64,000 nt of DNA from Anaerolineae bacterium (GCA_013178095.1 JABLXK010000004.1:1-64000), one strand, 5' to 3'. Counted from the first letter of the stretch, positions 32,908 through 36,064 are shown. Notes: generated by a model from the letters alone, not told the origin. Made by a program: numbers and translations.

Positions 32908-32981
32908 GCCCTCGTAGCGCAACTGGACAGCGCATCGGACTTCTAATCCGGCGGTTGTGGGTTCGAGTCCCACCGGGGGCG
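32908..32981 (+). tRNA. tRNA-Arg(UCU)
   Basis: 74 nt without encoded CCA. Acceptor arms GCCCTCG and CGGGGGC pair over seven positions with one T-G pair. The anticodon stem TCGGA/TCCGG encloses CTTCTAA, with anticodon TCT at 32942-32944, reading AGA. The T arm GTGGG TTCGAGT CCCAC is perfect. The 19 bases from the T loop through the acceptor are repeated just downstream. Confidence 0.96.
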
Positions 32982-33126
32982 CTATTTATTTAACATCAGG
33001 CGGCCGCGGGTTTCCTCTGCGAGGACAGGCGAGTCCCACCGGGGGCGCTATTTTATTAACATCAGGCGGCTGCGGGTTTCCTCTGCGAGGACAGGCGATC
33101 CCCAAAGGGTTTAACATTAGACGGCC
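32965..33126 (+). repeat. 66-bp tandem repeat that includes the 3' end of tRNA-Arg
   Basis: Copy 1 (32965-33030) starts inside the T loop of the tRNA and copy 2 (33031-33096) repeats it with 63 of 66 bases identical. A shortened third copy (33097-33126) keeps GATCCCC at one end and TTTAACATTAGACGGCC at the other. Each full unit carries the tRNA 3' piece GAGTCCCACCGGGGGCGC and a small CCTC-TGC-GAGG hairpin. No integrase or terminal repeats are nearby. The third copy lacks the tRNA portion. Confidence 0.9.
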
Positions 33127-33248: not shown

Positions 33249-33277
33249 TTGACAATTTCGTGTTTTGGTGCTAAATT
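33249..33277 (+). promoter_or_regulatory. Sigma-70-type promoter reading into the c-di-GMP riboswitches
   Basis: A perfect TTGACA (33249-33254) and TAAATT (33272-33277) are 17 bases apart. Transcription would begin near 33284, about 15 bases before the first aptamer, so the riboswitches form the leader of the protease mRNA. Confidence 0.75.
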
Positions 33278-33299
33278 AATAGCAGAAAATTAAAAATAG

Positions 33300-33392
33300 A
33301 GACCGACAAAGGCAAAACCAGCGAAAGCTGGCGACGCAAAGCTATGGGTCTACAGTTGCTATGGCAACCACGACCGCCAGGCCGCCGAAATT
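33300..33392 (+). promoter_or_regulatory. Cyclic di-GMP-I (GEMM-I) riboswitch, first copy
   Basis: The aptamer carries the GEMM-I core: GGCAAAACCAGC, a GAAA tetraloop, GCTGGCGACGCAAAGC, then GGGTCTACAG, and GCCAGGCCGCCGAAA at the 3' side. The CCAGC/GCTGG stem with GAAA cap and the following GACGCAAAGC segment that contacts the second messenger are diagnostic. It is followed 20 bases later by its own terminator. The family assignment is by recognition of conserved bases; a covariance-model search would be decisive. Confidence 0.88.
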
Positions 33393-33412
33393 CTGATGAT
33401 AATTCCCTGCGG

Positions 33413-33442
33413 ACCTGGTATAAAGCCAGGTTTTTATTTTTA
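33413..33442 (+). terminator. Terminator of the first riboswitch
   Basis: ACCTGG, a 7-base loop TATAAAG, then CCAGGT and a T-rich tract (TTTTTATTTTT). The CCTGG arm is complementary to CCAGG in the aptamer's 3' strand and GACC to its GGTC, so an alternative antiterminator is possible. Confidence 0.82.
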
Positions 33443-33474
33443 ATCAACGGAAGATGATGTAGTTTAAAAACAGA

Positions 33475-33572
33475 AAGCGATAAGAGCAAAGTCAGCGAAA
33501 GCTGGCGGCGCAAAGCCACGGGTCTACAGTTGCTGCGGCAACCATGACAGCCAGGCCGCCGAAATTCTCATT
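33475..33572 (+). promoter_or_regulatory. Cyclic di-GMP-I (GEMM-I) riboswitch, second copy
   Basis: Near-identical in its core to the first copy: GTCAGC, GAAA, GCTGGCGGCGCAAAGCC, then ACGGGTCTACAGTTGC and GCCAGGCCGCCGAAATTCT. The spacers between and around the two aptamers differ, so this is an old duplication rather than an assembly artefact. It is followed by a second terminator just before the protease start codon. The ORF track's start for the protease lies inside this aptamer and is not used. Confidence 0.88.
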
Positions 33573-33599
33573 TCATCGATCCCTCACATCTAAAATGCG

Positions 33600-33640
33600 G
33601 ACCCGTGCATGTGCTACGCAGCTCGGGTCTTTTTGTTTTG
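33600..33640 (+). terminator. Terminator of the second riboswitch, before the protease start
   Basis: GACCCG (33600-33605) pairs with CGGGTC (33624-33629), with an inner TGC/GCA pairing, followed by TTTTTTGTTTT. The same CGGGTC also occurs inside the second aptamer (33519-33524) and could form an antiterminator with GACCCG. Confidence 0.82.
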
Positions 33641-33642
33641 GG

Positions 33643-35913
33643 ATGTGGAAGATGATGAAAACAATTGAAAAATGTTCTGCCAAATGGCTTCAACGCGGCC
33701 TGATCGCTGTAATTATTCTTATGTTTTTTCTCACCACCGGAGTCGTGAACGTGCAGGCGCAGGAAGAAAATCCGCCTGAGCATCCCGGCGAGTCAGCACC
33801 TTCGGAGGAAGGCCAACAACCGCCAACGCAGATTCCTGAAGTCCTGCCTACCGAAACCCCTGAACCCACTTTAACGCCCACACCAACTTTGACCTTCACT
33901 CCCACCCTGCCAATCACCACAGAAACTTCTGAACCCGTTGAACCTACCCAATCTGATGCCAATTACGTTTTGGACCAACCGATGGGAATACCAACCCTGC
34001 CGGTGGAATATACAGCTGAACCAACGATCACTCCAACTGAAACCCCCACCCTGGAAGCCTCGCCCACCGCCGGGGATTTAGCGCCGCTGCTCATACCAAA
34101 GGGCGGGCCTATTCAGACTGGTCAATATATTGTAGTTTATAAATCCAGCTACAAAGTATCCAGGCACGAAACCGAAATCAAGGGTCGTATCAAGGAAAGG
34201 GGCGGCAGAGTCAAGCGGGTTTTCAGTAAATCGCTCAATGGTGTGTCCGTCAGTTTGGATAACCAGGCATTGAAAGCAATGCGTGAAAATCCGGACGTTG
34301 CCTATATCGAAGCGGATATGGTGATCAATGTGGACGAAGCACTGCTTTCAGCCAGCGCCATTCAAACCGGGGCAACCTGGGGCCTGGACCGTATCGATCA
34401 AGTCAGCATCCCCTTGAATGGGACTTATCAGTACCAGGCTTCCGGCGCGGGTGTCAACGTCTATGTCATTGACAGCGGTATTCTCTCCACCCATTCCGAA
34501 TTCGGCGGGCGGGTCAACCTGGCTTTTGACAGCGTCGGGGACGGCCAGAATGGGACTGATTGCCAGGGGCATGGCACGCATGTAGCCGGTATTATCGGAG
34601 GCAACACGTATGGGGTTGCCAAGAACGTCAATCTTTTTGCAGTACGGGTTTTAAACTGCAGCGGCTCCGGAACAACCTCGTCTGTGATCGCCGGCATCGA
34701 TTGGGTGACACAGAACCACAGCGGCCCTTCGGTGGCTAACCTCAGCCTGGGCGGGTCATCCAGCACCGCGCTTGATACGGCGCTTAATAACATGATCAAC
34801 AACGGCGTGATTGCGGTCGTTGCAGCCGGAAACGCGAATAATAATGCCTGCAGTTATTCGCCGGCGCGCGTTCCGAACGCCATCACGGTGGGATCGACCA
34901 CCTCTGATGACGTACGTTCCAGTTTTTCCAACTACGGCAGCTGCGTGGATATATTCGCCCCCGGATCAGGAATTAAATCGGCTATTGCGTCCAGCGACAG
35001 CGCAACAGCCTCCATGTCGGGAACTTCCATGGCTTCGCCGCACGTAGCCGGCGTAGCAGCGTTGTATCTGGAAGAACACCCCGGCGCTTCAGTGGGAAGC
35101 GTTACCGACGCAATACTCTCCAACGCCTCGAGCGGTGTAATCTCGGATGCAGGTTCCGGTTCTCCTAACCGCCTGGTCTATTCCCTGTTCGCAACCAGCG
35201 CAATCCCTGAAGATCAACCCACTCCAACCAAAACGCCGGTGACTCCTGTCTCGACCGAAGAGCCGGCAGCCGAAGTCCCCACTGCCGAACCCACGCGCAC
35301 ACCTACCAGAACCGCAACGCCATTACCAACCGTCAGCATCCCAAGCAAAGTGACCTCGCTCAGCCCATCTGGAAATATCTATGAAATTCAACCTTTCCTG
35401 GTGTGGGAAGCCATTCCCACCGCGATAAGTTATCATCTACAGCTTTACCGCAGCTCAACCCGTCTGGTCAATCTGGAAGTTCCCGCAACCGTATGTAATG
35501 GCGAATATTGTTTCTATCAACCTGACTCACCTTTGACAAAATACACCAAGTACAAATGGCGCGTGCGCGCCTTGGTAAATGGCGTTTGGACCAAATTCAA
35601 TGCTTTCACGGTTTTCAAATTGCTCAAACCCATTCCAACCTTGATATCTCCGCGCACCACCATCCAGGATATCCAACCAGTCTTTGTCTGGAAGAATATT
35701 CCGGTTGCCGATTATTACCAATTTGAGATTTATGATGGTTATGTTCTAAAATATATTGCCACCCTCGACCAGGATGATTGCGACGAAAGCCAGTGCGCTT
35801 ACCAGCCTGAAGCGGATTTAGTGACCAGGAAATACCGTTGGCGTGTCCGCGCCTATGCATACGATGCCTGGGCAGCTTACAGTTCATATTCAAAATTTAA
35901 AATTTCAAAGTAA
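33643..35913 (+). CDS. Secreted subtilisin-like serine protease (S8) under c-di-GMP control
   Basis: About 756 aa from the ATG at 33643; ATGs at 33652 and 33655 are equally possible, and GGAAG lies just before them. A signal peptide ends VQA-QE, then a Thr/Pro/Glu-rich linker of about 100 residues, an I9-type propeptide (GQYIVVYKSSYKV to VAYIEADMVINV), and a proteinase-K-like domain with Asp in YVIDSGI (277), His in CQGHGTHVAG (310), oxyanion Asn in AAGN (397) and Ser in SGTSMASPHVAG (462). After a second Thr/Pro linker come two related beta-sandwich repeats, each with a paired Cys and ending YKWRVRA or YRWRVRA. Probably surface-associated. The riboswitch leader predicts control by c-di-GMP. 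Confidence 0.93.
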   Translation: MWKMMKTIEKCSAKWLQRGLIAVIILMFFLTTGVVNVQAQEENPPEHPGESAPSEEGQQPPTQIPEVLPTETPEPTLTPTPTLTFTPTLPITTETSEPVEPTQSDANYVLDQPMGIPTLPVEYTAEPTITPTETPTLEASPTAGDLAPLLIPKGGPIQTGQYIVVYKSSYKVSRHETEIKGRIKERGGRVKRVFSKSLNGVSVSLDNQALKAMRENPDVAYIEADMVINVDEALLSASAIQTGATWGLDRIDQVSIPLNGTYQYQASGAGVNVYVIDSGILSTHSEFGGRVNLAFDSVGDGQNGTDCQGHGTHVAGIIGGNTYGVAKNVNLFAVRVLNCSGSGTTSSVIAGIDWVTQNHSGPSVANLSLGGSSSTALDTALNNMINNGVIAVVAAGNANNNACSYSPARVPNAITVGSTTSDDVRSSFSNYGSCVDIFAPGSGIKSAIASSDSATASMSGTSMASPHVAGVAALYLEEHPGASVGSVTDAILSNASSGVISDAGSGSPNRLVYSLFATSAIPEDQPTPTKTPVTPVSTEEPAAEVPTAEPTRTPTRTATPLPTVSIPSKVTSLSPSGNIYEIQPFLVWEAIPTAISYHLQLYRSSTRLVNLEVPATVCNGEYCFYQPDSPLTKYTKYKWRVRALVNGVWTKFNAFTVFKLLKPIPTLISPRTTIQDIQPVFVWKNIPVADYYQFEIYDGYVLKYIATLDQDDCDESQCAYQPEADLVTRKYRWRVRAYAYDAWAAYSSYSKFKISK

Positions 35914-35935
35914 AGTTAGTGTACCGAAAAAACAT

Positions 35936-35968
35936 AAAAATGAGCTTGTTTATTACAGGCTCATTTTT
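35936..35968 (+). terminator. Terminator after the subtilase gene
   Basis: AAAAATGAGCTTGT, loop TTATT, ACAGGCTCATTTTT: a 14-bp stem with one G-T pair, whose A and T tails make it work in either direction. Confidence 0.9.
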
Positions 35969-36064
35969 CATTTTCAAACTAGAAGGTTAATAAGACTTTA
36001 ATAATTAATTTACTGTAAAATTTTGTATGCTACTTCCATAATCCTTTTGTTAAAGAGGTGAACC

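Follow-up and report, generated by a model that had tools for sequence, protein, structure and literature searches.

The leader of a secreted subtilase gene in an Anaerolineae genome contains two cyclic-dinucleotide riboswitches arranged in series, each predicted to act as an OFF switch, such that the protease would probably be shut off when the "stick to surfaces" messenger is high. While this kind of control is already known, the leader is unusual in combining mixed G20 and A20 ligand pockets and in using two different antiterminator strands in near-identical units. The strong association of such leaders with proteases in Anaerolineales is likewise unusual. The identity of the ligand, the sign of control in the cell and the biological purpose of the leader are what we infer from the evidence below.

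Organization of the Leader and Its Gene

The window, i.e., the entire 64-kb stretch of DNA that was analysed, belongs to a draft genome of 2.94 Mb that is 94% complete (G000). The leader and its gene contain the following features, all on the plus strand:

33249–33277 (+): sigma-70-type promoter, TTGACA-17-TAAATT with an extended −10, 10/12 matches, 23 nt before aptamer 1
about 33301–33389 (+): unit 1 GEMM-I (c-di-GMP-I) aptamer; RF03167 63.6 bits, E 1.1e-12; RF01051 73.7 bits
33376–33385 (+): unit 1 antiterminator strand, the aptamer 3′ strand GCCAGGCCGC; pairs with 33409–33419
33409–33443 (+): terminator 1, hairpin GACCTGG..CCAGGT (33412–33432) plus U-tract; −11.2 kcal/mol
33449–33459 (+): GGAAGATGATG followed by TAG, a copy of the protease ribosome-site/start region after terminator 1
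33475–33563 (+): unit 2 GEMM-I aptamer; RF01051 69.8 bits, E 1.3e-11
33518–33525 (+): unit 2 antiterminator strand ACGGGTCT, the 5′ strand of P3; pairs with 33599–33606
33599–33639 (+): terminator 2, hairpin GGACCCG..CGGGTC (33599–33631) plus U-tract; −17.7 kcal/mol
33647–33657 (+): Shine-Dalgarno-like GGAAG and protease start codon(s)
33655–35913 (+): secreted proteinase-K-type S8 subtilase, 752 aa; Peptidase_S8 E 1.8e-45, Inhibitor_I9 E 7e-7

Both GEMM-I aptamers were matched by Rfam (E of about 1e-11 to 1e-12), with scores above the gathering cut-offs of the covariance models (59 bits for RF03167 and 35 bits for RF01051), and the GNRA loop, the GCAAA and CGCAAAG cores and the P2 and P3 helices are present in the alignments and sequences. 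The two aptamers are identical at 75 of 89 positions. Among the differences is the ligand-contacting base equivalent to G20 of Vc2, which is a G in unit 1 (within AAAGGCAAA), as in c-di-GMP-selective GEMM-I aptamers, and an A in unit 2 (within AAGAGCAAA), as in the GEMM-Ib (cGAMP) class. Because of this A, unit 2 is not filed as c-di-GMP-selective. Two complete aptamer–terminator units in a single leader constitute a tandem of the multiple-expression-platform kind.

The promoter is composed of TTGACA at 33249 and TAAATT at 33277, with a TG preceding the second hexamer. A lone match of this quality is not significant, as 3.8 are expected at 9/12 or better in the region; TTGACA promoters also lie 5–23 nt before the aptamer in other GEMM-I leaders of the genus, including a TTGACA-17-TAAATT at 22 nt before the aptamer in G003. 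The terminators begin 22 nt (unit 1) and 35 nt (unit 2) after their aptamers and use no aptamer bases. The second U-tract ends at 33639, only 3, 12 and 15 nt before the candidate ATGs at 33643, 33652 and 33655, respectively, and therefore leaves no space for a further promoter. The protease can thus only be reached through read-through of both terminators or from an internal promoter, and no internal promoter that would allow its transcription without both terminators was seen in the leader.

The encoded protease has a hydrophobic N-terminal segment that reads, by eye, as a signal peptide, followed by a Pro/Thr-rich stretch, an I9 propeptide (residues 172–224), an S8 domain (264–494) and a C-terminal repeat region. 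Its Asp, His and Ser motifs are intact, and the nearest solved structures, keratinase 5wsl_A (E 2.1e-113) and aqualysin-1 4dzt_A, belong to the proteinase K group; the S8 domain with these motifs, together with the I9 propeptide, places the protein among the proteinase-K-type S8 subtilases. A hairpin with a T-run on the 3′ side of the gene (about 35930–35970, by eye) suggests that the protease is transcribed as a single-gene unit. The best homologues of the protease in G001 and G003 have no nearby GEMM-I match, and riboswitch control of the orthologous proteases of the genus was rejected on these grounds.

An earlier note on this DNA, made from the sequence itself, had described a TTGACA-N17-TAAATT promoter, two GEMM-I aptamers within 33290–33580 that each carry their own rho-independent terminator, a second terminator ending 3–12 bases before the protease start, and a secreted, propeptide-bearing protease, and all of these agree with the results above. 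Its designation of the pair as tandem c-di-GMP riboswitches is upheld in that both are GEMM-I aptamers and unit 1 carries G20, but is less secure for unit 2, where A20 falls outside the c-di-GMP-selective class. Similarly, its picture of near-identical cores with differing flanks fits the overall identity of the cores, but the ligand-contacting base differs between them, and the flanks share GGAAGATGATG.

Switching Mechanism

Pairing probabilities and energies were obtained by ViennaRNA folding of truncated transcripts, a calculation that takes in neither ligand, ligand energy, tertiary contacts nor kinetics. In unit 1, a 10-bp pairing with one bulged A joins the terminator's switching arm, GCGG-A-CCTGGT, to the 3′ strand of the aptamer (mean P 0.90), and it forms both before and after the terminator 3′ arm emerges. 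In unit 2, the arm GGACCCGT pairs with the P3 strand at P 0.78 until the 3′ arm emerges. These competing pairings disrupt the aptamer in both units. Under enforced aptamer pairing, the optimal fold of either unit includes the terminator hairpin, and ligand should therefore favour termination (OFF). Enforcing the aptamer costs 10.2 kcal/mol in unit 1 and 4.7 kcal/mol in unit 2 relative to the free MFE, a gap that ligand binding would have to pay. Detached terminators whose 5′ arms alternatively pair with the aptamer are the hallmark of Cd1-type transcriptional OFF riboswitches, and the OFF reading is backed by this match to the published Cd1 architecture, with its antiterminator formed through an aptamer strand (PMC9262584).

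The OFF logic proposed in the earlier note is thus supported computationally, both by the alternative arm pairings and by the terminator that forms once the aptamer is enforced. The pairing on which that proposal was built, between a terminator GACC or GACCCG and the aptamer's GGGTC, was recovered in unit 2; in unit 1 its probability is 0.00, and the 3′ strand is used instead. Covariation bears on the generality of each pairing. Across 53 dereplicated leaders with a detached terminator, among which some relatedness remains, terminator arms were paired with their own or with other leaders' aptamers in 10,000 permutations. Arms and their own aptamer 3′ strands gave −12.29 kcal/mol when matched versus −10.35 kcal/mol when mismatched (0/10,000 permutations), while arms and GGGTC strands showed no covariation (6171/10,000). 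Together with the P of 0.00 in unit 1, the latter result led to rejection of a GACC/GGGTC antiterminator as a general rule. In unit 2, the GGGTC pairing reaches −18.2 kcal/mol, with 0 of 76 other arms as good, and the pairing of its arm with the 3′ strand is ordinary (35 of 76 as good). The unit 2 antiterminator is therefore idiosyncratic; its GGGTC pairing is not conserved elsewhere, so it rests on one sequence.

In the proposed mechanism, transcription would start ~17 nt before aptamer 1 and proceed through the two cyclic-dinucleotide aptamer–terminator units into the protease gene. The 5′ arm of each terminator would have two alternative partners: its own 3′ arm, giving the terminator, and a strand of the aptamer before it, giving the antiterminator. 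For the latter, unit 1 would use the 3′ strand GCCAGGCCGC and unit 2 would use ACGGGTCT. Once bound, the ligand would lock the aptamer and free the arm, whereupon transcription would terminate. Since two serial OFF switches would multiply read-through, the protease would be made only at low messenger. Unit 1 would operate with a standard c-di-GMP pocket, and unit 2 would most likely still answer to c-di-GMP, perhaps at another threshold, or to both c-di-GMP and 3′,3′-cGAMP.

The Ligand of the Second Unit

The unexplained base change in unit 2 may alter the ligand that it senses. In Geobacter and D. acetoxidans, aptamers with A in place of Vc2 G20 are associated with cGAMP binding (PMC9481103, PMC6456294). 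Of 153 GEMM-I aptamers of related genomes, 122 carry G at the equivalent base, 28 carry A and 3 carry C; more than one aptamer occurs in 32 of the 110 GEMM-I leaders of these genomes, and several of the doublets mix G and A. For example, a second tandem GEMM-I leader of G000 (C18:95634–95889, minus strand; L054), located before a sortase gene (NF053836, 243.9 bits), has G and then A at the specificity base, as in the window, and similar tandems occur in G001, G003, G035 and G147. Among the matches listed, similar mixed tandem leaders were also found in named Chloroflexi/Anaerolineales records, from which an Anaerolineales placement of G000 seems likely, and A20 aptamers were found in Clostridia, Bacilli, Chloroflexi, Elusimicrobia, Gemmatimonadota and others.

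A cGAMP synthase was sought in the genomes. The readable GGDEF domains of G000, G003 and G147 include no Hypr-type (Ser) member, a few degenerate or motif-less domains being unassignable, and no AGS_C or SMODS domain occurs in G000. Neither of the known kinds of cGAMP synthase (Hypr GGDEF or CD-NTase) is therefore evident in G000, where, at 94% completeness, a gap is possible. Given this result and the presence of A20 in many phyla, the ligand of unit 2 could be c-di-GMP, cGAMP or both. Of these we favour c-di-GMP, perhaps sensed at another threshold, for several reasons: the position contributes to selectivity without being a hard filter (PMC9262584); c-di-GMP affinity fell only slightly in a natural A-bearing variant from D. 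acetoxidans (PMC9481103); no synthase was found; A20 is widespread; and the second unit of the sortase leader, an orthologous position, has G in two genomes (G001 and G003) and A in two others (G000 and G035). Direct sensing of cGAMP by unit 2 was set aside as a first choice, since no Hypr or CD-NTase was found and A20 is widespread.

It is quite conceivable, though held tentatively, that both units bind c-di-GMP with staggered affinities, the A20 unit being the weaker, and that the leader would give a two-step or wider, not a sharper, response. Consistent with this, one pocket base differs between the units and so do the antiterminator strengths (10.2 vs. 4.7 kcal/mol); the latter difference implies that the two units would differ in their ligand demand.

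A two-input device, in which unit 1 would sense c-di-GMP and unit 2 3′,3′-cGAMP, with either silencing the protease (NOR logic), appears unlikely. Unit 2 does carry A at the position by which c-di-GMP aptamers (G) are told apart from c-AMP-GMP aptamers (A) in PMC9481103, and the sortase tandems of G000, G035 and G147 likewise mix G and A. However, the arguments that favour c-di-GMP for unit 2 all count against this device: the synthase search, the frequency of A20 among the matches listed from Clostridia, Bacilli, Elusimicrobia and other groups, the G/A alternation at an orthologous position, the nature of the position as a selectivity factor, and the affinity kept by the D. acetoxidans variant. 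A more general version, whereby one leader would integrate c-di-GMP (through G20) with 3′,3′-cGAMP or either messenger (through A20) in gating a secreted protease, the cGAMP coming from an unknown synthase, seems improbable to us; if true, the G/A pairing in sortase leaders would imply unrecognised cGAMP signalling in Anaerolineales. In any case, G20/A20 pairs both within one leader and at one orthologous position provide a natural test of ligand change versus affinity tuning only.

Origin of the Tandem

The two window units are mutual best matches (84%), followed by unit 1 of the sortase tandem (83%), which favours local duplication of a sortase-related leader; the whole leader appears to have been duplicated locally. 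The window and sortase leaders are alike in promoter and spacing. A common ancestral tandem for both was rejected, as a tree of the short aptamers fails to pair unit 2 with unit 2. The sequence GGAAGATGATG is present just twice in the window, once behind each terminator (33449 and 33647), and the copy after terminator 1, which meets a stop codon after two codons, is probably a vestige of the duplication.

Such a vestige of a gene start could also be taken as a sign of decay in one unit, most likely unit 1 as the duplicated upstream copy, which would leave regulation to the other; of the c-di-GMP riboswitches predicted in C. difficile, only 11 function (PMC6366702). We doubt this for the window, as unit 1 still has the conserved elements of the aptamer (73.7 bits) and an intact terminator, and its antiterminator obeys the family-wide rule.

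Upstream of the leader, two 66-bp direct repeats, 95% identical, lie at 32964–33095. The first starts inside the 3′ end of a tRNA gene (32908–32981), and the 3′ end of the tRNA is thus duplicated downstream.

Relation to Known Systems

The closest precedent is the zmpI/PPEP-1 gene of C. difficile (PMC6366702), a published case of a class I riboswitch that represses a secreted protease. There, as proposed here, a class I OFF switch precedes the gene for a secreted protease. The C. difficile protease, which releases surface proteins, is a zinc metalloprotease, whereas the window combines a mixed-base tandem with a proteinase-K-type serine protease. Silencing of the exoprotease at high c-di-GMP may, as suggested in the earlier note, relate to biofilm dispersal. 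The Cd1 OFF riboswitch of the C. difficile flgB operon (PMC9262584) shares the detached terminator (T+H) and the antiterminator formed through an aptamer strand (A); in contrast to Cd1, the window leader has two units, and the antiterminator of its unit 2 involves the P3 5′ strand rather than the 3′ strand.

Complete aptamer–terminator units in series are also found in the Bc3-5 triple-tandem c-di-GMP-I riboswitch of B. thuringiensis (PMC4759541), for which a sharper response was demonstrated, but its units are described as ON switches for surface proteins, whereas the geometry here is OFF. A survey of tandem riboswitches (PMC9481103) gives c-di-GMP-I as the commonest tandems known, with 347 doublets and 12 triplets of the same architecture as the window leader; its available part does not single out mixed G20/A20 doublets, and its table of logic gates contains AdoCbl/c-AMP-GMP and no c-di-GMP/c-AMP-GMP pair. 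Finally, the GEMM-Ib 3′,3′-cGAMP riboswitches of Geobacter (PMC6456294, PMC8835794) carry A20 as in unit 2 and also occur as tandems. They differ in that a Hypr GGDEF makes cGAMP in Geobacter, with none found here, and in that ON switching is seen in the pilM example.

GEMM-I Leaders in Related Genomes

In a set of 61 genomes, an S8 protease lies downstream of 9 of 67 GEMM-I leaders, compared with ~0.07 expected (from ~102 S8 genes in 29 GEMM-bearing genomes and an assumed ~100,000 genes; binomial 5e-17, relatedness ignored). With nine leaders preceding subtilase genes, c-di-GMP riboswitch control of secreted proteases, as in C. difficile, would be extended to a distant phylum. In G000, single GEMM-I leaders precede genes for an InlB-B-repeat surface protein, a beta-helix protein, DUF3048 proteins, an EAL protein and others, such that subtilase control stands beside sortase, surface-protein and EAL phosphodiesterase leaders.

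The S8 leaders of G016, G039, G049 and G059 resemble that of the window in having detached terminators of the OFF type. In G006, G010 and G033, the aptamer 3′ end is itself the terminator 5′ arm, an ON geometry, and high c-di-GMP would therefore not silence subtilases group-wide. An ON switch in which ligand binding blocks termination is highly improbable for the window leader even though that geometry occurs in the same family before subtilases, as the window terminators stand apart from the aptamers and share no bases with them, so that the direct ON design is absent, and the competing pairings disrupt the aptamers; ON logic was rejected on the lack of overlap.

Several other GEMM-I leaders deserve mention. 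Secreted subtilases or trypsin-like proteases follow ON-type leaders at G006:C9, G010:C10 and G033:C5 (L080, L083 and L094), G047:C1:735541 and G060:C145. The leader at G000:C17:289163 (L059) precedes the gene for an EAL protein whose GGDEF domain is degenerate, and likely provides feedback on c-di-GMP breakdown. A20 aptamers stand before DUF3048 proteins at G000:C19:171840 (L060) and G003:C1:138085 (L076), with GGTC and a U-run directly after the aptamer, and an ON geometry is possible for both. Finally, two or three GEMM-I aptamers are arranged head-to-tail in a row, overlapping by 4–8 nt with no terminator between them, at G017:C151, G025:C346, G030:C60, G047:C1:2991443–2991705, G105:C36, G153:C238 and G154/G160/G161. 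Whereas c-di-GMP-I is classed in the tandem survey among the multiple-platform arrangements (PMC9481103), these head-to-tail aptamers apparently share one expression platform and are possibly cooperative, by analogy with glycine riboswitches.
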